32,601 bases of DNA from Candidatus Eiseniibacteriota bacterium (GCA_030609365.1 JAUWCJ010000015.1:1-32601); one strand, 5' to 3'; shown: positions 3,534 through 27,871, numbered from the stretch's first letter. The notes: generated from the letters alone by a model not told the origin. Numbers and translations: made by a program.

Positions 3534-3562
3534 TTGACTTCTGCCGACATTGGGTCTACACT
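3534..3562 (+). promoter_or_regulatory. Sigma70-like promoter of the 3640-19160 operon
   Basis: The -35 box TTGACT (3534-3539), a 17-base spacer and the -10 box TACACT (3557-3562) predict transcription from about 3569. This lies in the 233-base gap after the phosphoesterase gene and in front of ten closely spaced plus-strand genes. The predicted start lies downstream of an in-frame ATG at 3550, which rules that codon out as the start of the next gene. Confidence 0.7.
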
Positions 3563-3571
3563 CGCGTCCGT

Positions 3572-3596
3572 TGGCGGGGAATGCCGAGCCCCGCCA
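3572..3596 (+). promoter_or_regulatory. GC-rich hairpin at the 5' end of the operon leader
   Basis: TGGCGGGG (3572-3579) pairs perfectly with CCCCGCCA (3589-3596) around a 9-base loop. It begins only a few bases after the predicted transcription start. There is no U-run behind it, so it is unlikely to be a terminator. A 5' stem of this kind can protect an mRNA from decay. Confidence 0.5.
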
Positions 3597-3639
3597 TGTC
3601 TTTCCTACCGTGTACGACAGACAGAAGGAGATGACGACC

Positions 3640-4938
3640 ATGAGACGAGCCAGGCTCTGGCCGGTGGCGCTTGTTGCGCTCGCGCTGGTGTTCGCCGCGG
3701 GCTGCGCCCAGAAGGAAACGAACCCGTTCGACCCGTCACAGGATCCGGATCCGCCGGTGGTGACGGGTTTCGTGTATTCCGGTGGTGAGGCCCAGTGGTC
3801 GACCGATGAGCCGGCGCTCTGTGTGCTGGAGTACGGACCCGTCGGCGGGGAGTTCGAGCACTACGTCTACGCGGCTACCAAGTACCACTCGACGTTCCAC
3901 CGCGTTACGCTATTGGACATGGAGGACGGCGTCGACTACGAGGTGCGGGTGCGGAGTGTCGATCGCGCTGGTAACGAGGGCTACGAGGTATCCGCACAGA
4001 TGCCGGATTCCATACCAGGTGAGGCGTTCACCGATCTCACGATGACGCTGGCGATGATCGACGTCGGATGGGGGCTCTCGATGGTGCTCACGACGCCGTC
4101 TGGAGCGAACGTTCTCATCGACGCGGGCCACTTGGATCACTTGGACGACGTGCTCACGTACCTCGAGGATCACTCGATCAGCTACTTCGACGCCGCGGTC
4201 GTGACGCATTATCATAACGATCACTACGGCGGGTTCGGTGGCTACACCGGGAACCCCAACACGGAGGTCGATGGAATCCTGAACACGTTCGGCGTCGGTG
4301 TTTTCGTTGCTCCCGACACCACGAATCTCTACAGAGAAATGGTCACCAGCCTCGCCGGGAAGCTCGACCGGTACAACGTTGATATTGAGTATGTGGGTCA
4401 GGGAGACAGCTCGTGGGATCATCCCGCGCTCGCGTGGGACAACACCTCCGGGTTCGAGGTCACGGTCCTGTCGGCCGGCGTGGGCGGGTTGGTAGGTCTC
4501 AACGACGACTCTGGCGACGAGGGTATGAACACCAACAACGACTCCGTCGTGCTCAAGCTGAGCTTCGGGGACGTCTCCTTCATCACGACAGGGGACGGCG
4601 AGCACTTCACCGAGTACGGCATCATCGACGCATTCGGGAGAGAGGCCGTCAGGGCCGATCTGCTTCAGGTCGCTCATCACGGCAGCGACGACTCCACCTC
4701 CAGGCTGTGGCTCGACAACGTTTCCCCGCGGGTAGCGTTCATATCGTGCGCCATTATCGAGGCGCCGCTCGTGAAGGAAGAGGTCCTCCGGGGCATAAGG
4801 GGTGTGAACGCCGATTACTTCGTGACGGATCGCGTAGTGGCGAACACCCCCAGACACGCCGTTCCGACGTATGGCAACGTGATAGCGGTCACCGACGGTT
4901 CTACTATTGAGGTCACCACCGAAGAGCACGTGTGGTAG
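3640..4938 (+). CDS. Lipoprotein with ComEC-like metallo-beta-lactamase domain
   Basis: The 432-residue protein starts with a lipoprotein signal (LVFAAGC, lipid cysteine 22), followed by an FN3-like segment (about 38-125) and a metallo-beta-lactamase fold (about 132-430) of the type at the C-terminus of ComEC/Rec2. Visible motifs are MIDVGWGLSMVL (139-150), THYHNDHYGG (189-198, zinc ligands), NNDSVVLKL (299-307), TTGDGE (316-321) and VAHHGS (344-349). The ComEC channel helices are absent, so this is a free-standing lipid-anchored hydrolase. Likely activities are nuclease or another phosphodiester hydrolase. ATG 3640 is chosen over 3631 because AAGGAG ends directly before 3631 and is 9 bases from 3640. 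It is the first gene of a long operon, 22 bases before an ABC permease gene. Confidence 0.85.
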   Translation: MRRARLWPVALVALALVFAAGCAQKETNPFDPSQDPDPPVVTGFVYSGGEAQWSTDEPALCVLEYGPVGGEFEHYVYAATKYHSTFHRVTLLDMEDGVDYEVRVRSVDRAGNEGYEVSAQMPDSIPGEAFTDLTMTLAMIDVGWGLSMVLTTPSGANVLIDAGHLDHLDDVLTYLEDHSISYFDAAVVTHYHNDHYGGFGGYTGNPNTEVDGILNTFGVGVFVAPDTTNLYREMVTSLAGKLDRYNVDIEYVGQGDSSWDHPALAWDNTSGFEVTVLSAGVGGLVGLNDDSGDEGMNTNNDSVVLKLSFGDVSFITTGDGEHFTEYGIIDAFGREAVRADLLQVAHHGSDDSTSRLWLDNVSPRVAFISCAIIEAPLVKEEVLRGIRGVNADYFVTDRVVANTPRHAVPTYGNVIAVTDGSTIEVTTEEHVW

Positions 4939-4960
4939 CGAGCGGCCGGAGGCGAGCGGG

Positions 4961-5935
4961 ATGACCTGGCTCGAGAGGCTCAAGCGGAAGAGCTACATGG
5001 ACCCCCTGACGGCGGCACTGTACCTGGTGCCAGCCGGCATCATCGTGGTCGTCTTCCGCATGCTGCCCATCGGCTCCGCCTTCCTGCTCTCGTTTTTCGA
5101 CGTCAAGATGGGGAGGATCCGGGGATTCGTCGGGCTCGCGCAGTACGCGCGGCTCTTCCAGGACCCGACCTTCTGGAGCTCGCTCGGCACGACCGCGTAC
5201 TACGTTCTCGGAGTTGTGCCGCTGTCGCTCTTCCTGTCGCTCTTCGCCGCCGTGCTTCTCAACCAGAAGATCCGCGCGCTTGGCTTCTACAGGACGGTCT
5301 ACTTCCTGCCCGTCGTGACCTCGCTCGTCGCGGTCTCGATGGTGTGGAAGTGGATCTTCCACCCCAGGCTGGGACTCCTGAACTACTTCCTGCAGTTCCT
5401 TGGGGGCGGGTCGCTTCAGTGGCTCGAGGAGCCCCGGGGCATATTCGAGATGGCGGCGGGCGCACTGGACTGGAGCTGGTGGCCGGGCGGGTTGGCCGGG
5501 CCCAGCCTTGCTCTCATCGCCGTCATCGTCGTCGCCATCTGGCGCGGCATCGGCTACAACATCGTCATTTTCCTTGCCGGGCTTCAGAACATCCCGGACC
5601 AGTACTACGAGGCGGCGCGGATAGACGGCGCGAGCCCGCGCCAGGTCTTCTGGAACATCACGTGGCCACTTCTCTCGCCGACGACCTTCTACGTGCTTCT
5701 CTCCACGACCATCGTGTCGTTCCAGGTCTTCACGCAGATCTATCTCATGACCGGCCCGCCGGTCGGAGGGCCGATGGGGACCACGAAGGTCATCGTCTAC
5801 TACCTGTTTGAGAAGGGGTTCGACGCCGGCGGCAACATGGGCTACGCGAGCGCGGTGGCGCTCGTGCTGTTCGGTATCATACTGACGCTCACGCTGGTTC
5901 AGCGGCGGATCGTGGAGCGGAGGGTCTACTACTAG
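4961..5935 (+). CDS. ABC importer permease, MalF/UgpA-like
   Basis: This 324-residue inner-membrane permease of the carbohydrate-uptake ABC class has six or more hydrophobic helices, the first at about 15-35. The EAA loop that docks the ATPase is clear (EAARIDGASPRQVFW, 217-231), with NITWPLLSPT following. The length is typical for UgpA/MalF2-type subunits. ATG 4961 has GGAGG 8 bases upstream. It pairs with the MalG-like gene, which starts on the last base of this one. Substrate class (sugar or glycoside, glycerol-phosphate compounds) is a family inference. The neighbouring genes hint at phosphate-containing or nucleic-acid-derived substrates. Confidence 0.9.
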   Translation: MTWLERLKRKSYMDPLTAALYLVPAGIIVVVFRMLPIGSAFLLSFFDVKMGRIRGFVGLAQYARLFQDPTFWSSLGTTAYYVLGVVPLSLFLSLFAAVLLNQKIRALGFYRTVYFLPVVTSLVAVSMVWKWIFHPRLGLLNYFLQFLGGGSLQWLEEPRGIFEMAAGALDWSWWPGGLAGPSLALIAVIVVAIWRGIGYNIVIFLAGLQNIPDQYYEAARIDGASPRQVFWNITWPLLSPTTFYVLLSTTIVSFQVFTQIYLMTGPPVGGPMGTTKVIVYYLFEKGFDAGGNMGYASAVALVLFGIILTLTLVQRRIVERRVYY

Positions 5936-6948
5936 TGAGTCCGGAGATGTCACAGCACGATCTCAAGATGAACACCCGGTACCGGGCGCGCAGGACGCTC
6001 GGGCGGGCCGGCGTCTACGCCGCCCTGTGGGTGGGGATCATCATCATGATCGTGCCCTTCTTCTGGATGCTCTCAACGTCGCTCAAGTCTCCCATCGAGA
6101 TTCTCAAGTTTCCCCCGACGTGGATTCCGACGGGGCACTTCGCCCAGACCGAAGACGGCGCCGCCGAAGTCTACGTGATTTCGGAGGACCGCACCGCGGG
6201 CACCGCGGTCGTGCGGTCCGTCGATGGGGGACCGGACTCGACCGTGCTGTCGTCAGAGGTGATAGACCGGGCGCGCCTGCGGTTCTCGAACTACGTTGAG
6301 GCTTGGAACCAGGCGCCGTTCGCCCGCTACTACTTCAACACGATTCTAGTGACCCTCTTCGTCGTAGCCGGCGTGCTGGTGACGTCTTCGCTCGCGGCCT
6401 ACGCGTTCGCGAGGATGAAGTTCTGGGGAAGGGACAACATCTTCGTGGTCTTCCTTTCGATGATGATGGTGCCGCAGCCCGTCTACATCGTCCCGTCGTA
6501 CATCGTGCTCGTGAAGCTCGGGTGGATAGACACCTATCAGGCGCTCATCATCCCGTGGCTCGCGCACATCTTCAGCATTTTCCTGTTGAGGCAGCACTTC
6601 AAGACGATCCCGAACGACCTCTACGACGCCGCCATCATAGATGGCTGCAGCCGGTTCGGGTTCCTGTGGCGAGTCATGCTGCCGCTGTCCAAGGCGGTGC
6701 TGGTCGCCGTCGTCATCTTTACCATCGTCGGCACGTGGAACTCGTTCCTGTGGCCCCTAGTCATGACCAACACTCCGGAGGTTCGTCCTCTCCAGGTCGG
6801 TCTGGCGCGGTTCTCCCAGGAGCAGGGCACCAGCCACGAGCTCATGATGGCCGCGGCGGCGTTCTCCATTGCGCCCCTCATCGTCGCGTACTTCTTCGCA
6901 CAGAAGCAGATCATACAGAGCCTGGCGACGTCGGGCATGAAGAGCTAG
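5935..6948 (+). CDS. ABC importer permease, MalG/UgpE-like, with enlarged periplasmic loop
   Basis: This is a 337-residue partner permease. It has helix 1 at about 26-47, the typical STSLKSPIEILKFPPTWIP segment, and an EAA-type loop at 230-246 (YDAAIIDGCSRFGFLWR). The GTG start shares one base with the preceding TAG (TAGTG), which suggests translational coupling. A GGAGGG sequence lies about 11 bases upstream. Between WIP (63-65) and NYVEAW (119-124), where most family members have only a short link, there is an insert of roughly 50 residues with short beta-like stretches (AEVYVISED, TAVVRSVDG). It lies in the first periplasmic loop, facing the binding protein. No ATPase gene follows in the window. 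Confidence 0.9.
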   Translation: MSPEMSQHDLKMNTRYRARRTLGRAGVYAALWVGIIIMIVPFFWMLSTSLKSPIEILKFPPTWIPTGHFAQTEDGAAEVYVISEDRTAGTAVVRSVDGGPDSTVLSSEVIDRARLRFSNYVEAWNQAPFARYYFNTILVTLFVVAGVLVTSSLAAYAFARMKFWGRDNIFVVFLSMMMVPQPVYIVPSYIVLVKLGWIDTYQALIIPWLAHIFSIFLLRQHFKTIPNDLYDAAIIDGCSRFGFLWRVMLPLSKAVLVAVVIFTIVGTWNSFLWPLVMTNTPEVRPLQVGLARFSQEQGTSHELMMAAAAFSIAPLIVAYFFAQKQIIQSLATSGMKS

Positions 6949-7023
6949 CCGCAGGGCGTCGAGAGTTAGACGTCAGGCGCCAGGAGCCAGACGCAGGACA
7001 TGAAGGGCCAGACGGAGGAGATT

Positions 7024-8304
7024 ATGAAACGGTACGTGATAGCGGTCGCCGTGGTGCTCACGGTCGCGGCACTCATTGCGGGGTGCGGTGGTGGAGGAGA
7101 GGAATCGACTTCCGGTGTCGTCACTGTGCAGTTCTGGCACGCGATGGGCGGGCCCCTGGGTGATGCGCTGGACGAGCTCGTCGCCGAGTTCAACGAGACC
7201 CACCCCGGGATCGATATCGTGTCGATCAGCATGGGGAGATATCAGGCTCTCTCTCAGAAGATCATGGCCGCCGTCGCGGCGGGACAGCCGCCGGTGCTGG
7301 CCCAGGCCTACGAGGCGTGGACCGGGGAACTCATCGAGAACGGTAGTGCAGAGCCGCTCAATACGTACATCGAGGGAGCTGACGGCCTGACGGCCGCTGA
7401 GATCGACGACTTCGTACCTGGGATGCTCGACAACAACTCGTGGGAGGGCACGATCTACTCGTTTCCCTTCAACAAGAGTGTCAGGGCCATCTACTGGAAC
7501 AGGGACCTGTTCGCGGCGGAGGGTCTGGACCACGCTCCGACCGACTGGTCCGAGTATGAGGGCTTCGCCCGCCGCCTGACCAAGGACACTGACGGCGACG
7601 GCAAGATCGACCAGTGGGGAACCGCAGGCCAGATCAGCGCCTGGATGTTCGAGAACCTCCTGTTGCAGACCGGCGGACAGATCCTCACGGATGACGGAAC
7701 GGCGGTCGCCTTCGACAGCGCCGAGGGAGTGGACGCTCTCGAGTTCATGGTCCGGCTCCTGACGAAATGGGGCAAGGTGACCTCCGGCTACGAGTATCAG
7801 AACGACTTCCAGGCCGGTAAGGTCGCGATGATCGAGGGCTCGACGGTGTCGCTCTCCTTCATGGAGGGGAAGTACACGTTCGATATGGCGGTGGCGCCCC
7901 TGCCCGAGCAGAAGGGGAAGGGCTGCTACGTGGCCGGGACCAACGTCGTCATCTTCTCGAACGCGTCTCAGGCGCAGAAGGACGCCGCGTGGAAGTTCAT
8001 CAAGTGGTTCACGAGCCCCGAGACCACGGCGCGCTGGGCGGCGCGGACAGGCTACGCGCCCGTCCGGATGAGCGCGACTGCGTCCGAGGCGATGACCGCG
8101 CGGTTCGCAGAGATAGACGGACTGAAGGAAGTCCTCCAGCAGCTTGAGTTCGCGTCCTACGAGCCGAGGTCGGGCGCATGGTACGCCGGGCGCAAACATC
8201 TGGAGGAGGTGGGTGTCGAGGGCGCGCTCAGGCAGCGGATGACTCCGCCCGAGGCGCTCATCGAGGCCGCACGGCTCGTGAATGCTGCGCTGGCCGGGCA
8301 GTAG
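7024..8304 (+). CDS. ABC importer substrate-binding lipoprotein (family 1)
   Basis: The 426-residue protein has a lipoprotein signal (LIAGC, cysteine 21), followed by a glycine linker and a bacterial extracellular solute-binding family 1 fold. It shows typical sequences: VTVQFWHAMGG near 34-43, FNETHPGIDI, SFPFNKSVRAIYWNRDLF and an EF-hand-like calcium loop DTDGDGKID (188-196) seen in many members. It would capture substrate in the periplasm and deliver it to the two permeases encoded just upstream. ATG 7024 follows GGAGGAG with a short spacer. An upstream in-frame ATG at 7000 would add residues before the signal and lacks a good ribosome site. The 75-base gap before it is rich in short CAGACG/CCAGGAG repeats of no clear function. 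Confidence 0.9.
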   Translation: MKRYVIAVAVVLTVAALIAGCGGGGEESTSGVVTVQFWHAMGGPLGDALDELVAEFNETHPGIDIVSISMGRYQALSQKIMAAVAAGQPPVLAQAYEAWTGELIENGSAEPLNTYIEGADGLTAAEIDDFVPGMLDNNSWEGTIYSFPFNKSVRAIYWNRDLFAAEGLDHAPTDWSEYEGFARRLTKDTDGDGKIDQWGTAGQISAWMFENLLLQTGGQILTDDGTAVAFDSAEGVDALEFMVRLLTKWGKVTSGYEYQNDFQAGKVAMIEGSTVSLSFMEGKYTFDMAVAPLPEQKGKGCYVAGTNVVIFSNASQAQKDAAWKFIKWFTSPETTARWAARTGYAPVRMSATASEAMTARFAEIDGLKEVLQQLEFASYEPRSGAWYAGRKHLEEVGVEGALRQRMTPPEALIEAARLVNAALAGQ

Positions 8305-8393
8305 TATCGACCGACCGACTCATCCGCGCGCGGAGCGGGAGCCGGTTTGAAAACGACGAATCGACGGATAGCACGCAACTACAGGAGGGATCG

Positions 8394-9488
8394 ATGATGC
8401 GAGAGCAGAAGGGCTGGGTGATCCTGGCGGTCGCCCTCGCGGTTCTGACGGCGGCGCCGGCTGCGGGGCAGGAAGTGACGATCTGCGACGTGCAGGAGTA
8501 TGACGCGATGGGGTTCTCGGTGCTCGAAGGAGATACCGTGGCCGTGCAGGGCGTGGTCACGGTCGAGCCGGGGGTGTTCCAGCCCGCGATGACGTCCTTC
8601 TTCATCGAGTGGGGCGACTGCGGGATCAACGTCTTCCACCCCTATTCCGACATTGTCGCGGTAGCCGTGGGCGACACCATCGAAGTGACCGGTGTGGTCA
8701 CGGAATATCAGAGCTCCAGCACCGGGGCCGGATCGACGACGGAGATCGTCCTGTTGAGCCCGTCAAGCTGGTCGATGGTGGCGGAGGGCGACGGCGAATT
8801 CGAGCCCACGTACCTGAGCCTCAAGAGACTCGGAGCGGAGAAGAACGAGGGCAGGCTGTGCAGGACCATCGGCGTGGTTTGTGAGAGGAACCTGCCGTAC
8901 GACATATACATCCATCAGCCGTGGTCGGGCGCCGACATCCAGGTCTACCGGGCCAACGAAGAGCTGAATCTCGGCGTGTTCGATATCGGTGATACCATCG
9001 ATGTAACGGGCAACATGATGCAGTATGACAGGGAGGCGCCGTTCTTCGGCGGCTACGAGCTGTCGCCGCGATACGAGAGCGACATGAAGATGGCGGTCGT
9101 GCCGGCCTCATGGCCGCCGGAGCCGGAGTTCTGGCCGAACGCCGCCCTCCGGATTCCCACACAGGTGTTCAGGCCTCACGGCAACGAGGTGATTCCCATC
9201 GCCTATCTCGCGGACGACCGTAGCGAGGTCACGATGAAGATCTACGATTTGCAGGGAAGGGTCGTGCGAACGCTGACCGAGGAAGAGTACACGGGCTACT
9301 CGTCCCTACCGGAGTTCTACAAGGAGGACTTCTTCGTTCAGGGCATCAACGGCTGGGACGGCCGCGATGACCTTCGACGGCTGGCTCCCGCGGGAGCGTA
9401 CGTCTGCCGTCTCGAAGTGGAGGACAGAGACGGACTGGTCAGTGTGTCGACGGCGCCGATCGTGGTCGGCGTCAAGCTCACGAGGTGA
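8394..9488 (+). CDS. Secreted protein with paired OB-like domains and FlgD-like Ig domain
   Basis: The 364-residue protein has a signal peptide (1-25, cleaved near AAGQ), two consecutive OB-like beta modules (about 27-125 and 130-232) and a C-terminal FlgD-type Ig domain (about 262-362). The Ig domain carries EVTMKIYDLQGRVVRTL and a WDGRDD turn. The OB pair has the signature QEYDAMGFSVLEGD, later VEPGVFQP, and ends with GGYELSPRYESDM. The second OB pair of the next gene (residues 698-896) has the same landmarks, so the two are paralogous. No catalytic motif is visible. A binding or scaffold role outside the cell is likely. ATG 8394 and ATG 8397 both follow AGGAGGG, and I chose the first. It ends in a hydrophobic PIVVGVKL strand rather than a recognised sorting motif. 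Confidence 0.75.
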   Translation: MMREQKGWVILAVALAVLTAAPAAGQEVTICDVQEYDAMGFSVLEGDTVAVQGVVTVEPGVFQPAMTSFFIEWGDCGINVFHPYSDIVAVAVGDTIEVTGVVTEYQSSSTGAGSTTEIVLLSPSSWSMVAEGDGEFEPTYLSLKRLGAEKNEGRLCRTIGVVCERNLPYDIYIHQPWSGADIQVYRANEELNLGVFDIGDTIDVTGNMMQYDREAPFFGGYELSPRYESDMKMAVVPASWPPEPEFWPNAALRIPTQVFRPHGNEVIPIAYLADDRSEVTMKIYDLQGRVVRTLTEEEYTGYSSLPEFYKEDFFVQGINGWDGRDDLRRLAPAGAYVCRLEVEDRDGLVSVSTAPIVVGVKLTR

Positions 9489-9518
9489 CGGGCGCAACCG
9501 GACTGAAAGGACGATCGT

Positions 9519-12500
9519 ATGCATGTGATGCGGGTAGCTCTGATCGGGATGTTCATCGTCGCCCTGCCTGTGCTGGCAGGCGCTGACATCATCCCCATAT
9601 CGGACGTCAACGAAAACGACGAGCATGGGTTCCCCGTGCTCAGGGGAACCGTGGTGACGGTGCAAGGTGTGGCGGTCGTAGGGACCGGGGTGCTGGGAGA
9701 CGACACCGATATCTACATTCAGGACGAGACAGGCGGCGTGAACGTGCGGCAGACGGGCATGGCGTCGCCGGTCATCGCTCTGGGCGACAGCGTCTGGGTC
9801 AAGGGCAGAGTCGGCCACGCCACGAGCAGTGGCCGCACCGCTCTCTACATCGACGCCATCGCGTATCCCTCGACAAGAATGGTCATCGTGAACAGCGGGA
9901 ACGAACTCCCGACGCCTCTCGAGCTGACGCCGCGCCAGATTTCGGTGTCGGGGGAGGACCTCGAGGGGATCTACGCCGTCGTCAGGGACGTATCGCTCGC
10001 GGGCAGCTGGCAGAACTGCGCCAGCCCTCCTGTAGACAGCTACACGAGGATCGCAGACGGCGACACCATCTGTCTGCTCTGGTTCGACAAGGACACGGAC
10101 CTCTGTGGACCTCCGGAGCCGCTTCTGACCTTCGACGTGTACGGCTTTGTGGTTCCGGATATCAGCAGCACGCCCACGACGGGCCATGGGATTCTTCCCA
10201 GGAGCAGGAGCGACGTGCTGTCGTCCGGTCCGGGGAGCGGGTTCGTCACGCTCGAGCCGGACCGCGTGTTTACGGACGAGGTGGCCGATCTCCTGTTCGG
10301 ATTCGAGGCGGACGGCAGCGAGCTGACGCAGGTGTCTATTGCGGTGCCGGGTGGTTGGGAGTTCCCGGATCCCGCGTCCGCCGTGCACCTGGTCGGCCCC
10401 GGTTTTGCGGGCGCGCTGATCGAGGCTACGTCTGACCTGGTCGTGCTGACCGGGTGCGAGCTGACCCGGGAAAACCCGGGCACGGTGATACTGGCGGGAA
10501 TTGTGGCACCCGCGTCGGCGGGCACGTATTCGTTCGAAGTCAAGACCGCGGACGAGGGGAACGACCTCGCCGACATCCAGGCACAGCCTGAAATTGGAGT
10601 GGGGGCGCTTGCCGACGCCGGCACGGTGCTCATCAATGAGATCTACGCCCACTCCGGGGGCACCGACCTCAACGACCGGTCGGAGTTCATCGAGCTCTAC
10701 AACCCCGGTGACGAGGCGGTCGACCTGACGGGCTGGGTGCTGACCGACATAAGCGACGAAGGCTACTGCGCCGGGTCGAACCTCTGGGAATTCCCCGAGG
10801 GGACCGAGCTCGCGGCCCACGACTACGTCGTGATCGCCAAGGACGCCAAAGGCAGTTACGGGCAGGGCTTCTACTACGTGTTCTGGGAGTGGCCGGACTT
10901 CGAGTTGGTCGATCCCTATCGCAGTGATGCCGCATCGCCGAACGACGTCGAGGCCATGATCCTGGTGACTCCCTACGACGGCAACCTATCGGTGAAGCAG
11001 GAGATCCGTCTCATCGGCGGTCCCGACGGCAACGGCACGCTCGTTGCCGGCACGCCGTCCTACGAAGCGGTGCTTCTGTACACCGACCGGACGATGACTC
11101 ATCTGGTCGACGCGGTCGAGTACCGCGACCCGGTGTTCCTGGCCGAGGACCCCTGCGCGGACGCTCCGGGACTGGGAGGCATCGACGACGCCTGGACCCC
11201 GGGCCCCCCGCCTTGGCACACGTCGCTCGCCAGGAACGAGGTCTCCGACGATACGGACGTCAGCCGTGACGACTTCTCCCTGGTCGCGCCGACGCCGGGC
11301 GAGCAGAATCCAATCTCGGACGAGTCGGTCCCGACGGTCGCGTCGGCTTCGGGCGCCAGTCACAATCTGGCGCTGGTGAAGTTCAGCAAGCCGGTGAATC
11401 CAGACGATGCGGAGAATCGTGCCAACTACACAGTTGGGGACGATGTCGTGGTGCTCGAGGCCACGCTGTCGCGCGACGGACGAACCGTGCTGCTCAAGAC
11501 GACCGACCGTACTCCCGGCGAGTCGTACTCCATCGATATCGAGAACGTGACCGACGTGGCCGGCAACACGATGGAGAGTTTCTCGGATTCGATAGCGATA
11601 GGCGTCACCACCATTTCCATCACCGACCTGCAGGAGTACGACGAGAATGGCTTCAGCATAAGGGCCGGCCAGACGGTGAAGGCCGTTGGCTTAACGACGG
11701 TCCCGGCGGGCGTCTTCCAGCCCGATTACACCAGCATGTACATACAGGAGCCGGACGGCTTCGGAGTGAACGTCTTCATGTACGGACAGATGTCGGAACC
11801 GGCACTCGAGGGCGACCTTGTCGCGGCTGCGGGTGAGATCGTCGACTACGTCAGCGGCTCCGGCGCCGGGGCAACGACGGAGGTGGACGCGAGTTCGGTA
11901 ACGGTTCTCGCTCGCGGGTTCTCTCCGCCTGAGCCGACCGTGCTGAAGACGGGCGAAGTCGGCCACGAGGACAACGAGGGTCTGTTCGTGCAGACGTCCG
12001 GAGTTGTCGTGAGCGTCGAGGGCTTCGCCATCTTCGTCGACGACGGTTCCGGGTCGATCCAGATCTACCAGAACTTCAACAACATCAACTTCGAACAGTT
12101 CGCCATCGGTGACAGCGTGAGCATGATGGGCGCCGTTCTGCAGTACGACCAGAGCGTGCCCTACCTGTCCGGATACGAGCTGGCGCCGCGATACAACGCT
12201 GACATGGAGATCCTCGAGGCCCAGTTCTCCGGGAGCGCGGACGTCAAGATCTCAGCACGCGTGCTCGACCTGGGCTCCGATGAGGCCATTGAGATTCTCT
12301 ATAGCGCGCCGAAGGCTAGCCACGTCACCGTGCGCATATTTGACTTAAAGGGAAGAGAGGTGGCGACTGTCTACGACGGCATCTGCCTGGGCCTGCAGCG
12401 GGCGACGTGGGACGCCAGGGACAACGCGGGGAACAGGGTGCCGATGGGCGCCTACCTGTGTCACGTGATGGCGAGAGACAGGGACCGCGGCAACGGAAGT

Positions 12501-12542
12501 AACGCGGCAGCGCCGATAGTCATCGGGAGGAAACTGGACTAA
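9519..12542 (+). CDS. Large secreted modular protein: OB pairs, lamin-tail domain, Ig domains
   Basis: The protein has 1007 residues. In order they are a signal peptide (1-22), an OB-like pair (25-235), a cohesin- or Ig-like domain (about 240-362), a lamin-tail domain (367-600; VLINEIYAHSGG, then SEFIELYNPGDEAVDLTGW), a bacterial Ig-like domain (603-695; LVKFSKPVNPDDAENRANY), a second OB-like pair (698-896; QEYDENGFSIRAGQ, PAGVFQP, GYELAPRY) and a C-terminal FlgD-like Ig domain (912-1007; VTVRIFDLKGREV). Lamin-tail plus OB modules are found around extracellular nucleases of the ExeM/NucH kind, but no nuclease catalytic domain is visible, so it is best seen as an adhesin or binding scaffold. 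It begins 30 bases after the previous gene, with AAAGGA before the ATG. Confidence 0.78.
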   Translation: MHVMRVALIGMFIVALPVLAGADIIPISDVNENDEHGFPVLRGTVVTVQGVAVVGTGVLGDDTDIYIQDETGGVNVRQTGMASPVIALGDSVWVKGRVGHATSSGRTALYIDAIAYPSTRMVIVNSGNELPTPLELTPRQISVSGEDLEGIYAVVRDVSLAGSWQNCASPPVDSYTRIADGDTICLLWFDKDTDLCGPPEPLLTFDVYGFVVPDISSTPTTGHGILPRSRSDVLSSGPGSGFVTLEPDRVFTDEVADLLFGFEADGSELTQVSIAVPGGWEFPDPASAVHLVGPGFAGALIEATSDLVVLTGCELTRENPGTVILAGIVAPASAGTYSFEVKTADEGNDLADIQAQPEIGVGALADAGTVLINEIYAHSGGTDLNDRSEFIELYNPGDEAVDLTGWVLTDISDEGYCAGSNLWEFPEGTELAAHDYVVIAKDAKGSYGQGFYYVFWEWPDFELVDPYRSDAASPNDVEAMILVTPYDGNLSVKQEIRLIGGPDGNGTLVAGTPSYEAVLLYTDRTMTHLVDAVEYRDPVFLAEDPCADAPGLGGIDDAWTPGPPPWHTSLARNEVSDDTDVSRDDFSLVAPTPGEQNPISDESVPTVASASGASHNLALVKFSKPVNPDDAENRANYTVGDDVVVLEATLSRDGRTVLLKTTDRTPGESYSIDIENVTDVAGNTMESFSDSIAIGVTTISITDLQEYDENGFSIRAGQTVKAVGLTTVPAGVFQPDYTSMYIQEPDGFGVNVFMYGQMSEPALEGDLVAAAGEIVDYVSGSGAGATTEVDASSVTVLARGFSPPEPTVLKTGEVGHEDNEGLFVQTSGVVVSVEGFAIFVDDGSGSIQIYQNFNNINFEQFAIGDSVSMMGAVLQYDQSVPYLSGYELAPRYNADMEILEAQFSGSADVKISARVLDLGSDEAIEILYSAPKASHVTVRIFDLKGREVATVYDGICLGLQRATWDARDNAGNRVPMGAYLCHVMARDRDRGNGSNAAAPIVIGRKLD

Positions 12543-12597
12543 CCAGCGGACGAGAATGCAGATGACACGAATGGTCTCAGCACCAAAGGAGGTACAT

Positions 12598-13479
12598 GTG
12601 AAAGGGGCAAGAACGATCATCGTCGTTGCGACGGTGGCAGTCCTGCTCGTGCCGTGCGCGGCCTACGCGGAGGGTGTGTTCGACAATCTCATCCTGTCGC
12701 CCAGGGCCCGCGCAATGGGCGGAGCGTTCGTTGCGGTCTCGGACGATGAGACGGCCATATTCACGAACCCGGCGGGGCTCGCCGATCAGGTTTCCATCGG
12801 CTTCTACGGGAGCTACGTGGACCTGTTCGGCTATCCGTACTTCGATCTGGGGTCCCTCTCGGCCGTGATGCCGACGAGCTACGGGACCGTGGGATTCGGC
12901 GCCAGGCTGTTCGAGGTCGAGCAGAACGACGTCGATCTCCTGCAGGAGTACACGATCTCACTCGGCCAGGGTTTCACGCTGATGAAGGACATCCACTCCT
13001 CGCTGGCGGTCGGTTACGCGGCGAACCTCTACGGGCTGTCGTTCGAGGCTCAGAGCGTCTCGGACGAGGACCTTGGCTCGGCCAACGCCGTCGGATTCGA
13101 CGTGGGCGTGCTCGGCACCCTGCGCGGACGGACCCGATTCGGGTTCTTCATGAAGAACATCAACAACCCGAAGATGGGCAAGACCGATACCGAGGACCTG
13201 CCCCAGTGGTTCACGGTAGGCGTGGCGTACGATCCCTACGGCGGTGTCACGACGTCACTCGAGATGCAGAAGCAGGACAACGAGGACGTCAGGACCTGCT
13301 TCGGCGTCGAGGCCGACGTAAACGACTACGTGACGGTTCGAGCGGGTCTGCAGAACAACCCGAACAGAGTCTCGGCGGGGTTCGGAGCGAGATGGCAGGC
13401 GGTCCGTATCGACTACAGCTACACTTCGCATGCCGTTCTGCCCGGCAGCCACCACATCGGGCTGGGCGTGGCGTTCTAG
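12598..13479 (+). CDS. PorV/PorQ-like outer-membrane barrel protein
   Basis: The 293-residue protein has a signal peptide (1-24, AYAEG) and then the N-terminal signature of PorV/UPF0164-type outer-membrane proteins, SPRARAMGGAFVAVSDDETA (34-53), followed by FTNPAGLA. The rest is a series of amphipathic strands ending in HHIGLGVAF, a typical barrel C-terminus. In Bacteroidota, PorV shuttles type-9-secreted proteins at the outer membrane, and many FCB lineages carry several paralogues of unknown role. I chose the GTG at 12598 because AAAGGAGG (12585-12592) ends 5 bases before it. An upstream ATG (12556) would put 14 extra residues before the signal. It sits between secreted modular proteins and another barrel, which fits a surface-assembly or transport role. 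Confidence 0.75.
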   Translation: MKGARTIIVVATVAVLLVPCAAYAEGVFDNLILSPRARAMGGAFVAVSDDETAIFTNPAGLADQVSIGFYGSYVDLFGYPYFDLGSLSAVMPTSYGTVGFGARLFEVEQNDVDLLQEYTISLGQGFTLMKDIHSSLAVGYAANLYGLSFEAQSVSDEDLGSANAVGFDVGVLGTLRGRTRFGFFMKNINNPKMGKTDTEDLPQWFTVGVAYDPYGGVTTSLEMQKQDNEDVRTCFGVEADVNDYVTVRAGLQNNPNRVSAGFGARWQAVRIDYSYTSHAVLPGSHHIGLGVAF

Positions 13480-13547
13480 AGCGGTTCGGACGGACCTGGG
13501 AATCGGGCGAATCCGGTTCCTAAGCAGAGTGAATCAGGGGAGGCACG

Positions 13548-16028
13548 ATGAGACCACTGAAAGCCATGGGGTTCCTCGCGATCCTGGTCGGTTTGTTCCT
13601 GACCTCGATCGCCCCATGTGTTCGGGCCGAGGAGCCGCTGGACCTGAACCGCGCGACGCTTGAGGAGATCATGAAGCTCCCGATCTCGGAGCCGGCCGCG
13701 CGCGCGATATGGGAGCGCAAGGAGTTCAGGTCCTACTTCGTGAGCGTGTACGAGCTGAGAGAGCTGCCCGAGATAGGGCAGGAAGAGCTCAACCTGCTCA
13801 AACCGCTGGTGAAGATAGTCGCGGTCCCGGTCGAGGACGAGGAGCTCAAGAGGGTCAACGAGATCTACTACAGGATCCGCAACTGGGAGGCTGAGGAGGG
13901 GGCCAGTGAGGCGTTGGTGGATCACTGGATCGATCTCGCGAAGGACCCGTTCAACATCAACGAAGCGAGCTACTGGCAGATCGCGAATCTGCAGACGATC
14001 TCGCCGCCCGACGCGGCCGCCATCTACCACTACACACAGGGGAATCGGATCGAGCGGCGGACGGCGCTGCGCAACGTTCCGGGGCTCACTTATTGGGGGT
14101 ACTACAACGCCCGCAATTTCGTGCGCTACCAGGAGGCGGAGGAGTCGGAGGCACTGAGAGGTAGCTACCAGTTCCGCGCCTTCAACACGTCTTCGTTCTT
14201 CGATATCGAAGAGTGTCTGCAGGAGAACAGGAACCAGGCGGACGGCGCGTACGACTCGTGGTGGGATCGCCTGGACCTCGATAGCGCCGGCCCCGTCTAC
14301 CAGCACAAGCTGCGGCTCAGGTGGGGTCAGGACGTCAGGGCCGGTGCCTTGGCCTATAGCGGCGTCGACGCTGGTAACGAATTCGACGCGTTGAAATACC
14401 ACGTGACGGTCGAGAACAAGGACTTGGGATCGGTCCACTTCGACAACGTCATCGTCGGAAACTACGCCGTCGCGTTCGGTCAGGGTCTGGTGATGCAGAA
14501 CACCGACTTCTACAAGCCGCGCAACTCCGGTTACGGCTGGGACAAGCGCCACATCGGGATTCTCGGCGATGTGTCCCAGACTCAGGAGTTCCAGCTTCAC
14601 GGGATCGCGACGGAGTTCGACGTCGGCAATGTGAGGAGCATTCTGTTCTACTCCGATGACTGGAAGGACGCGGTCCTGAACCCGGACAAAACGGCCAACC
14701 AGTACATCATAATGACGCCCAGGATCGACAACAGCGATCTCGCGGCGGGGGGACTGCGCGCGATGCGCGACGTCCTTCACGAGCAGACCGTCGGTGGGAA
14801 CGTCAAGTACATCTTCGGTCCGGGCACGTGGGTCGGACTCTCGGGGTACGAGGCGCGGTACAATAAGTTCTTCAAGGCTGCGTACGACCCGGATGGCGGG
14901 AGTGACGTCAGCTGGATAGTCCCGGAATCCGACCAGGACCACATCGTCAATATGGACAGCGAGTATTTCGGTTCCTACACGAGTCCGGGCAAGTTCCGGC
15001 GCGTGTACGGTGCTGAATTCCAGTGGGTCCACGACAACTACTCGTTCGCGGGTGAGTACGCCGGGCTGGACTCAGACGGCGAGCTCACGAAGTTCGAGGA
15101 CGACCCGAAGGCCCTCGTGGTCAACGGGTTCGCCTCTTACAGCAACCTGAGCGTGCTCGCGCTCTACCGCGACTACGATGTGGGGTTCGAGAACCCATAC
15201 AGCCGGGGGTTCTCAGAGTACAAGCGTTACAAGGGGACGATCCTCGAGGACCAGTACTACCTTTCGGATCCCCTCTACGGTCTGATGTACGACAACTCCT
15301 TCATGCCTCAGGCCGAGCGCGGGCTCTACCTGAACACGAGGTACAGGTTCTCGCATCGTCTCACGCCGGCGATCGAGTTTGATACGTGGGAGCGGAAGGC
15401 CGATGGCGCTGACTACTCGAGGGTCGTGCTCAAGCTGCGATACCAGCCCATCTACAACATTGTGATGAACCTCAGGCACAAGTGGCAGGGCCGGCTGAGC
15501 TCGAACTGGATAACGCCTCAGAACTACGATCAGGTAGAGACTAGACTGAGGGTCGAGTACCGGCTGTCGAAGTACGACGAAGTAGAGTTCCTGCTCTCGC
15601 GGTCGTGGATCACGTGGCCGCCGAGACCTCGTCTGTCGGACAATGTGGAAGCGGACGGCGGCCATCCGGATATCGGATCCGCGGCCGTCCCGTCGTACGC
15701 CGTCGGCGCTCAGCTGACCCACAACGTCAACGACTGGCTCAAGCTTGTGGGCGCGATCACGTACTACGATGGATTCCTCTGGATGTTCGAAGACGGCAGC
15801 TTCCAGATCATGGATGGGCAGGCGGTGAGGTACTGGATATCGGTCTCGGATCGCATATCCGACCACCTCGCGCTGAGGCTACGGTGGACGAACGACCACT
15901 CGTACCCGCTGACGTACGTCGACCCCAGGGAGTACAACGAAAACCCGGAGGGAAATCCGGAGCCTGACGGTTGGAACGTCAGAGACGACTCGGGCACGTT
16001 CCGCATCCAGCTCGATTACTCATGGTAG
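13548..16028 (+). CDS. Helix-hairpin-helix domains fused to a predicted outer-membrane barrel
   Basis: The 826-residue protein has a signal peptide (1-27, VRAEE) and two ComEA-like helix-hairpin-helix segments. The first (32-90) begins LDLNRATLEEIMKLP and ends with ELPEIGQEELNLLKPLV. The second (136-194) begins FNINEASYWQIANL and ends NVPGLTYWGYYNARNF. From about 205 to 826 it is beta-rich with many alternating aromatic strands and ends in FRIQLDYSW, as outer-membrane barrels do. ComEA-type HhH motifs bind double-stranded DNA in competence systems. If these keep that ability, they would sit in the periplasm at the mouth of a barrel. ATG 13548 follows GGGGAGG by 5 bases. Similar HhH-barrel proteins are known to me only as uncharacterised proteins in candidate phyla. 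Function is not established. Confidence 0.7.
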   Translation: MRPLKAMGFLAILVGLFLTSIAPCVRAEEPLDLNRATLEEIMKLPISEPAARAIWERKEFRSYFVSVYELRELPEIGQEELNLLKPLVKIVAVPVEDEELKRVNEIYYRIRNWEAEEGASEALVDHWIDLAKDPFNINEASYWQIANLQTISPPDAAAIYHYTQGNRIERRTALRNVPGLTYWGYYNARNFVRYQEAEESEALRGSYQFRAFNTSSFFDIEECLQENRNQADGAYDSWWDRLDLDSAGPVYQHKLRLRWGQDVRAGALAYSGVDAGNEFDALKYHVTVENKDLGSVHFDNVIVGNYAVAFGQGLVMQNTDFYKPRNSGYGWDKRHIGILGDVSQTQEFQLHGIATEFDVGNVRSILFYSDDWKDAVLNPDKTANQYIIMTPRIDNSDLAAGGLRAMRDVLHEQTVGGNVKYIFGPGTWVGLSGYEARYNKFFKAAYDPDGGSDVSWIVPESDQDHIVNMDSEYFGSYTSPGKFRRVYGAEFQWVHDNYSFAGEYAGLDSDGELTKFEDDPKALVVNGFASYSNLSVLALYRDYDVGFENPYSRGFSEYKRYKGTILEDQYYLSDPLYGLMYDNSFMPQAERGLYLNTRYRFSHRLTPAIEFDTWERKADGADYSRVVLKLRYQPIYNIVMNLRHKWQGRLSSNWITPQNYDQVETRLRVEYRLSKYDEVEFLLSRSWITWPPRPRLSDNVEADGGHPDIGSAAVPSYAVGAQLTHNVNDWLKLVGAITYYDGFLWMFEDGSFQIMDGQAVRYWISVSDRISDHLALRLRWTNDHSYPLTYVDPREYNENPEGNPEPDGWNVRDDSGTFRIQLDYSW

Positions 16029-16111
16029 CGGGGTGGGAGCGCAGGAAGCTCAAGGACAACGCCATGGAATCCAAGGTGTCAACAAGGAATCGTAAGAGGA
16101 GGAGGGTAGAG

Positions 16112-17377
16112 ATGCGTCGCCTGACGGCTGCGACAGCAGTCATTGCGATAGTGGCGCTCGCCGGAAGCGCGGGCGCGTTCACGCTCGCTGAGTGGGAGCG
16201 CTACGGCTATACGATGTCGACGTACGACGCCCGATCGCTCGGGATGGGAGGTGCGGGGCTCGCTGCCATAGACGGAGCGGCGGGGATGGCTCTGAACCCC
16301 GCGCTTCTGGGCAAGAGTGAGGGCATCGACGTCGCCCTGACCGGTATGTTCGTCATCGCGGAGGAGGCCAGGGAGACGCCTCTTCACGACAGCTTCGAAG
16401 GTATCATCGGGTACAACACGTACGCACTGAACACGGAGGTCTACGACCGCTATGTGGGCGCCGTGGCGTTCAACCCGACGACCGAACTCACGGACTTCAA
16501 GTGGGCGCCGGTGGTTGCCGTGGGCTACAGCCCTCGCATCGATATGAGCTATGGGTATCACGTGCAGTACAGGGATCCCGATTTCCAGACGGAGCCGGCG
16601 GACAAGATCCTCTATGACGACTACATCGATGGCAGCGGCGGCGTGAACGCTTTCTCTGTGAGCCTGGGACAGGAGGTCACGCCGGACGTCTACGTGGGGT
16701 TGGGCGTTGACTTCCTCAGTGGCGACTACGAGGTCAGCGAGCGACGGGTGTATCCCGCGGACTCCGACGATGAGGATGTCGAATCCTACGCGGAGTACAA
16801 CAAGGTGACGGGGACCCGGTTCACGCTCGGCGCTCTCCTCGAGAATCTCCACAGGGTGGACATCGCCGCGGTCTATCGGGCGCCGTTCACGCTCTCGGGT
16901 GATTACGACCTCCGCACCATCGGTTCGGAGGCCGGTTCGGAGGGCAGCTTCAAGCACGGTTATCCGGGCGAGCTTGCGCTGGGCCTGGAATACCATCCGC
17001 GGAATCTAATGCTGACGACGGTCAGCTGCGATGTCGAGTACACTTGTTGGTCCGAGTTCACGGACGACATGCCCGGGAGCGATCCCGAGCTGAACGACAC
17101 GGTCACGTACCGTCTGGGCGTCGAGCACGGGTTCTTCGATGACACGTTTGCCCGTTTCGGTTTCTCGTATCGGCCGTCCTACACCGACGAGAGAAACACG
17201 ACCACGGCGTTCAGTGTCGGGCTCGGTCTCGATATTCTGGGCGTGAGAATGGATCTTGGGGGGCAGGTGGGCTTGCGGGAGTACGGCATAGAGGACGACA
17301 CGGAGCACGGGATAGAGAACGTGCGAGTGCGCGAGACAACGACGCTCGCCATGATGACACTGACGCATACGTTCTAG
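16112..17377 (+). CDS. FadL/OmpP1-like outer-membrane transport protein
   Basis: The 421-residue protein has a signal peptide (1-22, SAGAF). It then carries the motif RSLGMGGAGLAAIDGAAGMA (41-60) followed by LNPALL, as in the OmpP1/FadL/TodX and related families of long-chain or hydrophobic-compound channels. The body is strand-rich and ends in a typical barrel end (TLAMMTLTHTF). I chose ATG 16112 because AGGAGGAGGG lies a few bases upstream and the signal peptide starts there. ATG 16064 is possible but would add a long basic stretch. It is the second small barrel in the operon. A PorV-like relative is the main alternative family. Confidence 0.68.
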   Translation: MRRLTAATAVIAIVALAGSAGAFTLAEWERYGYTMSTYDARSLGMGGAGLAAIDGAAGMALNPALLGKSEGIDVALTGMFVIAEEARETPLHDSFEGIIGYNTYALNTEVYDRYVGAVAFNPTTELTDFKWAPVVAVGYSPRIDMSYGYHVQYRDPDFQTEPADKILYDDYIDGSGGVNAFSVSLGQEVTPDVYVGLGVDFLSGDYEVSERRVYPADSDDEDVESYAEYNKVTGTRFTLGALLENLHRVDIAAVYRAPFTLSGDYDLRTIGSEAGSEGSFKHGYPGELALGLEYHPRNLMLTTVSCDVEYTCWSEFTDDMPGSDPELNDTVTYRLGVEHGFFDDTFARFGFSYRPSYTDERNTTTAFSVGLGLDILGVRMDLGGQVGLREYGIEDDTEHGIENVRVRETTTLAMMTLTHTF

Positions 17378-17405
17378 AGAGGCTACCGCTGAGGAGCACG
17401 CGATT

Positions 17406-19160
17406 ATGAGAAGCATCAGAGGCCCGGCGGCCGTTCTTGTGGCAGTCGCACTCGTCATGGCGGCGGTGGTCCCATCCGCGTCGGGCGAGGATGGGCTTAT
17501 CAGGCTGTCGGTCATCTTCACGAACGACATCCACGGCGGCATCGACAGGAGCGGCGCGACGTTCATGAACCGGGAGTTTCCGCCCCCCCTGGGCGGGGCC
17601 GCGTCGGCCGTAACGTACATCAGTTCGGTCAGGAAACGAGCCGCGGCGGAAGGTGATCACGTCCTTGTTATGGACCAGGGCGACATCTTCCAGGGGACGC
17701 CCGTCGGTAACTTCAAGAAGGGCGAGTCGGTCATCGAGTACTTCAACGCGATGGACTTCGACCTCTGGACCGTGGGCAACCACGACTTCGATGAGGGGTT
17801 CGAGAACCTATGGGATCTGATCGAGATCTCGGAGATGCCGGTCCTCTCGGCCAATCTCGTCTGGGCCGAATCCGGCGAGCCGGTCGAGCACGTCCTTCCT
17901 TACATCATCAAGGACTACGGCGGCATCAAGGTGGCGATCATCGGGCTCACGACGACCGACACGCCGAAGATGGCGTTTCCGGATCACGTCTCGGCCGTGG
18001 GGTTTCTCGATGAGATCGAGGCCGCGCGCAAGTACGTCCAGGAGGTCCGGGAGAAGGGCGCGGACCTCGTGTTCGTGTCCGGACACATAGGACTCCCGTA
18101 CGACCCCGAGTCCAGCTACATGGAGATGATCGAGGAGGAGGAAGAGCGGGAGGCGGAGAACGTGCGCGAGCCGCTCGAGGAACGGAAGTGGGGCCCGAGC
18201 ACGATAGAGATATCACACTGCGTTCCTGGGATCGACGTGTTCTTCTGCGGGCACATCCACAAGGGCTTCGACAAGCCCTGGGAGGAGCCCACGAATCATA
18301 CACTTCTTTTCCAGACCTACGGTAGGGGCTCGGGCGTCGGCCACGTCGACCTCCTGATCGACCCTGTGACGAAGACGCTCGCCGGCTATGAGCTGCCCAG
18401 CTACCGGGGCGTGCTGGTGACGCTCTTCGAGGACCAGTGGTGGCCGGAGGAGGAGATGGCTTCCATGGTCGAGGCTCGAGTGGCGGAGGCCGAGCAGGGG
18501 ATGGACCGGGTACTCGGCGAGGCCAACGTCGACCTGACCAGGGGGGGGGAGGGAGAGACCCGCATGGGCAACCTCGTGTGCGACGCCATGCGTGAGGAGG
18601 TGTCAGCCGACTTCGCTTTCACGAACCTGGGCGGCATCAGGGACGAGATCCCGGCCGGGTCTGTGACACCGCGGCAGGTATTTCGCGTTCTTCCGTTCGG
18701 CAACAGCCTTATGGTTTTCGAGATGGACGGGAGGTTGCTGAAGGAGGTCATTGAGTACCGCGTCAGCGCCGGGCACCACGGCGTCTACATGGCCGGCGGC
18801 AAGGTCATCTACAACAAGACGCGTCCGGACTACGACCGCATCACCTACTTCGAGATTGGTGGGGAGCAGTGGCAGCCCGACAAGATCTACAGCGTGGTGA
18901 CGTCTGACTTCCTCGCCACCGGCAACGCGGGCCTCTACATGTTGCCGCTGGTGCCGGAGGAGAAGAAGATGAGGACCTCGACGACGTGCATGGACGCCGC
19001 CGTGCACTACATCGAGCGTCACTCACCGATCGAAGAGAACATGGACGGGCGCTGGGTTCGTGACGACACCTCAGAGCTCGATCCCGCCCTGGCCGCTGCT
19101 ATGAAGGGAATGGAGCCGCTGGCTCCGCCGGAGGCTGAGTCGGGCGAAGCGTACCAGTAG
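17406..19160 (+). CDS. Secreted 5'-nucleotidase, UshA/SoxB-type
   Basis: The 584-residue protein has a signal peptide (1-27). The metallophosphatase domain shows NDIHG (40-44), DQGD (90-93), GNHDFD (124-129, with the catalytic His-Asp pair), GHIG (226-229) and GHIH (282-285). The C-terminal substrate-binding domain (about 365-545) has MGNLVCDAM, NLGGIRD (407-413) and VLPFGNSL. It should remove phosphate from nucleotides (or cyclic nucleotides/UDP-sugars) outside the cytoplasm. Differences from classical members are NLGGIRD where NGGGIR is common, and a very acidic insert (about 236-270) before GHIH. ATG 17406 follows GAGGAG by 8 bases. A run of nine G residues in the domain linker (18541-18549) is a potential slippage site. 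It is the last gene before the terminator. Confidence 0.88.
   Translation: MRSIRGPAAVLVAVALVMAAVVPSASGEDGLIRLSVIFTNDIHGGIDRSGATFMNREFPPPLGGAASAVTYISSVRKRAAAEGDHVLVMDQGDIFQGTPVGNFKKGESVIEYFNAMDFDLWTVGNHDFDEGFENLWDLIEISEMPVLSANLVWAESGEPVEHVLPYIIKDYGGIKVAIIGLTTTDTPKMAFPDHVSAVGFLDEIEAARKYVQEVREKGADLVFVSGHIGLPYDPESSYMEMIEEEEEREAENVREPLEERKWGPSTIEISHCVPGIDVFFCGHIHKGFDKPWEEPTNHTLLFQTYGRGSGVGHVDLLIDPVTKTLAGYELPSYRGVLVTLFEDQWWPEEEMASMVEARVAEAEQGMDRVLGEANVDLTRGGEGETRMGNLVCDAMREEVSADFAFTNLGGIRDEIPAGSVTPRQVFRVLPFGNSLMVFEMDGRLLKEVIEYRVSAGHHGVYMAGGKVIYNKTRPDYDRITYFEIGGEQWQPDKIYSVVTSDFLATGNAGLYMLPLVPEEKKMRTSTTCMDAAVHYIERHSPIEENMDGRWVRDDTSELDPALAAAMKGMEPLAPPEAESGEAYQ
18541..18549 (+). repeat. G9 homopolymer inside the 5'-nucleotidase gene
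   Basis: Nine consecutive G bases encode the RGG stretch at residues 379-381 at the junction between catalytic and C-terminal domains. Gain or loss of one base would truncate the protein before its substrate-binding domain. As read here the frame is intact. Confidence 0.9.
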
Positions 19161-19186
19161 CAGCGGGCGACATACGAGTTACGAGG

Positions 19187-19225
19187 AGGGCCCCGGACAG
19201 GCCGGTTCGCGGGCCCTCTGCTTTT
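19187..19225 (+). terminator. Intrinsic terminator of the long operon
   Basis: GAGGGCCC (19187-19194) pairs with GGGCCCTC (19211-19218) and is followed by TGCTTTT. It lies 26 bases after the 5'-nucleotidase stop codon and just before a new promoter. Confidence 0.75.
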
Positions 19226-26536: not shown

Positions 26537-26569
26537 GGGGCCGGGACCGGAATCGCGGCTGGAGGCGGG

Positions 26570-27784: not shown

Positions 27785-27871
27785 CCGGAGAGCGGAACGT
27801 GCGGCGGCCCAGCCATCTGCCGTGCGTCGATACCGCTCGACTAGACACCTTCACCACTCCACAGGAGACAC

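Follow-up and report, generated by a model that had tools for sequence, protein, structure and literature searches.

A predicted nucleic-acid or nucleotide scavenging locus built around an HhH-barrel in Candidatus Eiseniibacteriota

In sediments, extracellular DNA makes up a large pool of nutrients and, to our knowledge, the route of nucleic acid across the outer membrane of non-piliated diderm bacteria is poorly known. We asked what is taken up, and by which path, by a ten-gene locus (genes c to l, 3631-19160, all on the plus strand) located in a 32,601-nucleotide stretch from a Candidatus Eiseniibacteriota bacterium (GCA_030609365.1 JAUWCJ010000015.1:1-32601), this whole stretch being called the window. 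The locus encodes a metallo-beta-lactamase (MBL) lipoprotein, an ABC importer, secreted proteins with paired OB folds, a PorV-like protein, a helix-hairpin-helix (HhH) domain fused to a barrel, a FadL-like barrel and a 5'-nucleotidase. These assignments, made earlier from the sequence alone (the sequence-only reading), were all borne out by Pfam and NCBIfam searches. That reading had also proposed nucleic-acid or nucleotide scavenging; the substrate class gained independent support, whereas the support from the HhH modules and the order of the steps was weaker than claimed. The locus is probably a nutritional system that captures nucleic acid at the surface, cuts it and imports it as food. It offers a specific and widely conserved candidate pore, to which are joined a dedicated chain of surface, periplasmic and inner-membrane components and a purine-fermentation pathway.

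The substrate of the locus

The strongest single pointer to the substrate is the attached purine-using pathway. The barrel was present in 20 of the 20 genomes of its own family, near-identical barrels being found in Candidatus Eisenbacteria / Ca. Effluviviaceae metagenome-assembled genomes, and the order c-d-e-f-g-h-i-j-(k)-l-m was kept throughout the family where contigs span it (gene calling in the GC-rich relatives was a simple open-reading-frame heuristic with some spurious frames, and the conclusions rest on tblastn and family matches). Upstream of the locus, seven relatives carry genes for a BMP-type lipoprotein, an ABC ATPase and a permease, forming the complete importer to which gene a of the window belongs. 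Gene a (482-1378, plus strand) encodes the second permease of this nucleoside-type (BMP/BPD_transp_2) importer (PF02653, 3.4e-43; NF047928, 3.9e-52, below its cut-off); it is contiguous with BmpA-ATPase-permease in G004, and the remaining importer genes lie upstream in relatives. Between the two permeases of this importer lies the C-terminal end of an apparent MurJ (1-402); a MurJ-like gene is in the same place in several relatives and is absent in the same-genus G004 (L128), where about 150 bp separate the permease genes.

Further upstream in the seven relatives are genes for adenine deaminase, carbamate kinase, two carbamoyltransferases and xanthine dehydrogenase subunits, and the same purine cluster also holds MocA, a split transketolase, SsnA and dihydropyrimidinase. 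Adenine deaminase (Ade, TIGR01178), SsnA, dihydropyrimidinase (TIGR02033) and carbamate kinase (ArcC) scored over curated NCBIfam cut-offs, and NCBIfam matches were also obtained for the Xdh subunits, MocA, transketolase and the transferases, which are similar to YgeW or ornithine carbamoyltransferase (OTC). The order of the cluster is the same in G008, G010, G011, G012, G014 and G016, and Ade occurs in 19 of the 20 family genomes. In the source assembly contig C125 carries the cluster and breaks off within the BMP (BmpA) gene, and in G004 one contig runs from XdhFAD through gene g, including BmpA-ATPase-permease-a-b-c-d-e-f-g. The cluster resembles the E. coli reductive uric-acid/purine degradation cluster (PMC12507026) in its SsnA, HyuA-type dihydropyrimidinase, YgeW/OTC-like carbamoyltransferases, carbamate kinase and Xdh subunits, but it adds adenine deaminase and transketolase, and no YgfK, YgeY or XdhD was recognised in the stretches that were read.

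The importer of the locus itself consists of a UgpA-like permease (d, 4961-5935; PF00528, PRK10561 8.6e-39), a UgpE-like permease (e, 5947-6948; PF00528, PRK10973 3.9e-34) and a substrate-binding lipoprotein of the TTHA0379 (dinucleotide-binding) / UgpB class (f, 7024-8304), and by family and PDB matches it is a carbohydrate-class ABC importer. The best PDB relatives of f were 7c0t and 7c0f (3.7e-40), and its closest solved relatives, at 30% identity, form the Thermus structure set 7c0f-7c19 (7c0f and mutants), which we take to be TTHA0379 of Thermus thermophilus crystallised with dinucleotide. The motifs TSG[YF]xxQ and GTN are common to f, its distant relatives and TTHA0379 and are absent from E. 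coli UgpB. The name "dinucleotide-binding protein" is found in the title of a FEBS J article (doi 10.1111/febs.15774), as cited by PMC12718374. The source genome has a single UgpC/MsiK-type ATPase over the cut-off, on C6 and away from the locus, which could power f-d-e in trans.

The profile of j was searched over 386 genomes and detected the barrel in 59 of them, 39 of which are outside its own family and fall in 26 families. The f clade, searched over the same genomes with a threshold of 1e-80, occurred in 29 genomes outside the family, of which 21 were barrel-positive, the expected number being 3.1 (Fisher p 2e-17); by family the co-occurrence was 13 of 20 (p about 5e-10), both p values being inflated by phylogenetic non-independence. 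Every f-clade match of >400 bits was in a barrel-positive genome, and about half were unlinked to the barrel. An unlinked importer operon of G260 has the order deoB - ade - permease - permease - substrate-binding protein (SBP), deoB and ade encoding phosphopentomutase and adenine deaminase, respectively, and in G123 ade is located ~4 kb from the f homologue. Since a nucleoside importer and a purine cluster lie next door, f has a dinucleotide-binding relative, f and the barrel co-occur even when unlinked and in two further families the same importer is linked to adenine deaminase, we hold with good confidence that the substrate class is nucleic acid or nucleotide.

We also considered the scavenging of glycerophosphodiesters or other organic phosphate, in which f-d-e would import compounds of the glycerol-3-phosphate type and b and l would act as phosphatases. 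UgpA, UgpE and UgpB were indeed the best-scoring named families for d, e and f, and both b and l are phosphoesterases. However, the UgpA, UgpE and UgpB equivalog scores of d, e and f (134/335, 119/297 and 111/411 bits, respectively) were far below the cut-offs, f is nearer the dinucleotide binder than UgpB and has the two motifs that UgpB lacks, no glycerophosphodiesterase was found in the locus, and the linkage to adenine deaminase and phosphopentomutase is left unexplained. We regard this reading as very unlikely.

The enzymes of the locus would act on the proposed nucleic-acid substrate. Gene c (3631-4938) encodes a lipoprotein (with a lipobox) made of a fibronectin-like N-terminus and a ComEC-type MBL domain (TIGR00361, 7.3e-23), which carries HxHxDH (HYHNDH) and HHGS motifs and is 27% identical (E 4e-11) to the MBL domain of the full ComEC of the same genome. 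The product of c is an MBL-fold relative of the ComEC C-terminus with a predicted nuclease activity, but it differs from ComEC in that it stands alone as a lipoprotein, begins with the fibronectin-like part and has no membrane channel. Gene l (17406-19160) encodes a UshA-type 5'-nucleotidase / sugar-nucleotide hydrolase with Metallophos (PF00149, 4e-13) and 5_nucleotid_C (PF02872, 1.9e-32) domains and the metal-site motifs DIH/GNHD/GHIH; it matched PRK09558 at 3e-56 and scored 191 against a UshA equivalog cut-off of 600. Upstream of the locus, gene b (1391-3406, plus strand) encodes a secreted metallophosphoesterase with PhoD_N-like and calcineurin-like domains (PF00149, 5.4e-07; PF16655, weak) and is syntenic in G011, G014, G008 and G016.

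The carbohydrate class of d-e-f, together with a row of genes for MurQ (SIS domain), AnmK and a GH3 NagZ-type enzyme at 25580-29530, would fit polysaccharide or peptidoglycan-fragment utilisation through a sugar-type importer, and this recycling cassette is syntenic in G006, G007, G009 and G016. The cassette sits, however, behind a strong and separate promoter-like site and five unrelated genes, and in the distant genomes in which the importer, OB proteins, barrel and nucleotidase are shared it was not found close to the barrel. Family searches of c to m detected no glycoside hydrolase, polysaccharide lyase or carbohydrate-binding module. This use of the locus was rejected as its principal function and is the least probable of the alternatives that we weighed.

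The HhH-barrel and its surface partners

Gene j (13548-16028) encodes a signal peptide, two HhH modules (13638-13811 and 13947-14117) and a 24-strand beta-barrel (14154-16022). The AlphaFold2 (AF2) model made with 33 homologues (pLDDT 84.3, pTM 0.81) contains two all-helical HhH modules, at residues ~31-88 and 134-190, and 24 long strands at residues 203-825, which in this model form a closed set of long amphipathic strands, as in a transmembrane outer-membrane barrel. HhH homology was detected with PF12836 (HHH_3, 1.9e-12), the sole Pfam match, and TIGR01259 (1e-4), the ComEA matches in the PDB search were weak, and no TonB_dep_Rec or plug domain was found in j. Foldseek searches of the PDB returned outer-membrane barrels, including 24-strand ushers and TonB-dependent receptors, with TM values of 0.2-0.3, so that no solved close relative was found; these values are low partly because the HhH modules and the barrel were scored together. 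The adjoining outer-membrane proteins are a member of the PorV/PorQ family (i, 12556-13479; NF033709, 4.7e-24), whose PorV_fam score of 85.6 is just below the cut-off of 90 bits, and a FadL/BamG/PorV-like barrel (k, 16112-17377; PF03349, 2.5e-05; NF053685, 2.8e-16). The co-location of an outer-membrane pore, surface binding proteins, degradative enzymes and an inner-membrane importer recalls SusC/SusD-type loci. Unlike these, the locus has the HhH-barrel as its pore, and the searches gave neither a TonB-dependent receptor nor a plug or SusD domain.

The secreted proteins are g (8394-9488), with two OB folds and a FlgD_ig C-terminus of the kind seen in the type IX secretion system (T9SS), h (9519-12542), in which a lamin-tail domain (LTD, 3e-16) lies between OB folds and which also ends in FlgD_ig (9e-09), and m (19448-22366, plus strand), with a lamin-tail domain, OB/DUF5689 pairs and a T9SS-type tail (LTD, DUF5689, FlgD_ig and Por_Secre_tail matches). 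The C-terminal third of h is 41% identical to g. PF01336 (OB) was found in 20 of 25 homologues and DUF5689 in 12. The AF2 model of g (pLDDT 78.8, pTM 0.56) gave as best single-domain matches Ten1 (TMt 0.63), asparaginyl-tRNA synthetase (AsnRS) and RPA14. These matches bear out the OB fold; binding of nucleic acid by g, h and m is a prediction. SprA, the known T9SS translocon, occurs in 13 of the 13 good family genomes, and because of this and of their FlgD_ig/Por_Secre_tail ends g, h and m are predicted to be secreted as T9SS cargo, for which i would be the shuttle. This agrees with Flavobacterium, in which a shuttle of the PorV/PorP type often has its own cargo linked to it (PMC12618676). Gene m is syntenic across the family and also in G226. 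It is followed by m2 (22675-23295), a small secreted lamin-tail-domain protein conserved across the family, and in G008 (L008 / G008:C2:128000-146000) by several secreted tandem paralogues, very large at ~1570-1580 amino acids and matching the T9SS-type tail of m at their C-terminal ends.

In the nutritional scheme that we favour, g, h and m would be exported by the T9SS, with i as dedicated shuttle, and would hold DNA or RNA at the surface. Nucleic acid or oligonucleotides would then cross the outer membrane through j, with k possibly helping, and the MBL c, the 5'-nucleotidase l and the phosphatase b would shorten and dephosphorylate them, the location of c and l also being a prediction. Short oligonucleotides may enter through f-d-e, powered in trans by the single UgpC/MsiK-type ATPase, while nucleosides may enter through the neighbouring BmpA-type importer, and the adjacent purine cluster would catabolise the bases and pentose. 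The chances that j is the import pore are about even, and those that a polymer rather than fragments crosses the outer membrane are somewhat lower. The sequence-only reading placed degradation at the surface before passage through a barrel; this order is conjectural, and the polymer could cross first.

Several observations weigh against such a nucleic-acid system. The HhH hairpins of j lack the Gly-x-Gly phosphate-binding pattern, positions 45-48 showing no Gly pattern in the family and positions 75-77 a Gly in 19 of 33 sequences, followed by T/D, and the HhH region has a net charge of -11. Because of the lost glycines and this charge, direct DNA binding by the modules is not supported; the HhH modules were rejected as proof of DNA binding, and the sequence-only reading's appeal to ComEA-type HhH as a sign of DNA handling was given up. 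The modules are strongly conserved (D155, R175, G184 and R189). The exported proteins across 1391-22366 are strongly acidic, with a net charge of -4 to -12 per 100 residues, and charge is unusable as evidence because all of them are so. No obvious secreted nuclease was found in the locus besides the predicted MBL c, and UshA-type enzymes and OB folds serve other substrates too. An identity of 30% is too low to fix the ligand of f, which is predicted from its relatives, and E. coli UgpB, 24% identical to f, binds glycerol phosphate. The binding pocket is only partly conserved: at four mutated pocket positions of the Thermus structures that the alignments show, N and Q are both replaced by Ala in f, Thr by Ser and Tyr by Phe. 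Seven families have the f clade without the barrel, and the purine cluster adjoins the barrel locus only in its own family. As an observation apart, the acidity of the exported proteins is perhaps a salt adaptation.

Recurrence in distant families

The neighbourhood of the barrel was read for 25 of the families outside its own, and the counts that follow are numbers of families. PorV homologues of i were found directly upstream of j in 19, an OB protein upstream in 18 and a k-like barrel downstream in 16, and less often UshA (13), SBP (6), permeases (5) and MBL (3) were found near j. The MBL count leaves out G153 because its divergent MBL was just past the distance limit used; this genome has the complete set c-d-e-f-OB-OB-PorV-j-k-UshA at 30-67% identity. 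Homologous loci lacking the MBL, HhH and nucleotidase genes had been named in advance as the finding that would speak against scavenging: the barrel's own family keeps all three, whereas the distant families, in which HhH defines the set, keep the other two only in part. The locus is judged to be a real and ancient one, with a predicted role in nucleic-acid or nucleotide scavenging. In the open-licence papers searched, we found no description of the HhH-barrel or of these Eisenbacteria genes; the HhH-barrel core and the combination of components as a conserved system appear undescribed, the kinds of component being known.

ComEC-type MBLs were found near j in G136 and G151, and a full ComEC lies three genes from j in G227. 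Beside the barrel locus of G136 (L104:2481-6875), a 600-aa HHH_3 protein has a ComEC-type MBL protein on either side; this may be a second nucleic-acid module of variant type. After UshA in G285 (L116:14295-19128) and G148 (L117:14021-17740) there is a RecJ/DHH-DHHA1 exonuclease, and G285 also has a UgpC ATPase over the cut-off; a FlgD_ig-tailed protein with a PHP-like FYGNLHAHTGYSDG start also follows UshA in these two genomes. Two candidates were not counted: a carbamoyltransferase adjoining j in G122, first taken for YgeW, is an ordinary ornithine carbamoyltransferase, and a carbamate kinase adjoining j in G144 could belong to arginine metabolism.

The counts bear on the main rival to an import pore, in which i, j and k form a surface-assembly device, usher-like or accessory to the T9SS, that places the OB/lamin-tail proteins, and other porins handle nutrients. 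The OB protein, PorV and HhH-barrel are the most widely kept components (18-19 of 25), UshA (13) and the importer (6) being often absent, the weak structural matches of the j model include the 24-strand FimD/PapC ushers, the shuttle-cargo linkage of Flavobacterium (PMC12618676) is of the kind expected, and the hairpins of j are degenerate. A known translocon, SprA, is however already present in the family, the co-occurrence of the f importer with the barrel even when unlinked is not predicted by an assembly role, and families f126, f133 and f141 have the barrel without a detected OB neighbour. Assembly is in our view an unlikely function of the barrel.

In Riemerella anatipestifer, a DUF5689 protein (RA0C_RS04920), a predicted beta-barrel outer-membrane protein (RA0C_RS04915) and an HhH protein (RA0C_RS02645) are needed for transformation (PMC8459023). 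Our locus might likewise be mainly a DNA-uptake machine for natural transformation, with nucleotide use secondary: the same three ingredients (DUF5689 surface protein, large barrel and HhH domain) are required there, the DUF5689 found in 12 of 25 OB proteins is the domain of the essential RA0C_RS04920, and a full ComEC occurs in 16 of 20 family genomes, besides its proximity to j in G227. The likeness has limits, as the Riemerella HhH protein is separate and predicted periplasmic and its barrel has a carboxypeptidase-regulatory domain (PMC8459023), whereas here the HhH modules and the 24-strand barrel are one protein, linked to an importer, a nucleotidase and catabolism, and the barrels are likened by description. 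No competence genes such as those for DprA, ComF or pili were linked to the own-family locus, whose linked genes are importers, phosphatases and base catabolism; ComEC is a common bacterial protein (10 of 14 controls) and in the source genome is unlinked, at C165; and f is related to a dinucleotide binder. Transformation as the main function is therefore improbable, and, given a nucleic-acid substrate, a nutritional rather than a transformation role in the barrel's own family is very likely.

The HhH-barrels of many phyla might even form a new family of outer-membrane nucleic-acid importers. Each would be a pore of 24 strands carrying two degenerate HhH modules; OB proteins displayed through the T9SS would feed it, and DNA or RNA polymers would reach the periplasm with no need of type IV pili. 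Such import would serve nutrition and, in some lineages, transformation as well. We put this forward tentatively, as a proposal more apt to fail than to hold. The locus also gives a possible mechanistic parallel to the unexplained DUF5689/HhH transformation genes of Riemerella, and this parallel makes outer-membrane DNA entry testable in cultivable barrel carriers.

Transcription signals and flanking genes

The ten genes of the locus have ATG starts with purine-rich sites upstream, and the successive gaps from c through l are 22, 11, 75, 89, 30, 13, 68, 83 and 28 bp, in agreement with the earlier description of ten same-strand genes separated by less than 90 bases. The single promoter and single terminator said to be seen directly did not stand: a scan gave 4 promoter-like and 7 terminator-like sites, counts that lie within chance (2.7 and 7.8 expected, respectively), the promoter-like site at 3534 has 9 of 12 positions matched, and the hairpin at 19209 has just 5 pairs. 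Spacing and conservation are the grounds for proposing a c-l operon. A strong promoter-like site at 19244-19272, with 11 of 12 positions matched, suggests that a new unit starts at m (19448). The conserved neighbourhood is wider than the 3534-19225 given earlier and takes in a and b upstream and m downstream. Between the locus and the peptidoglycan genes lies a gene for a membrane protein of the Na/Ca-exchanger family (23487-24518), and the end of the window (30577-32601, minus strand) holds the apparent C-terminal part of an ADP-forming acyl-CoA (acetate) ligase.

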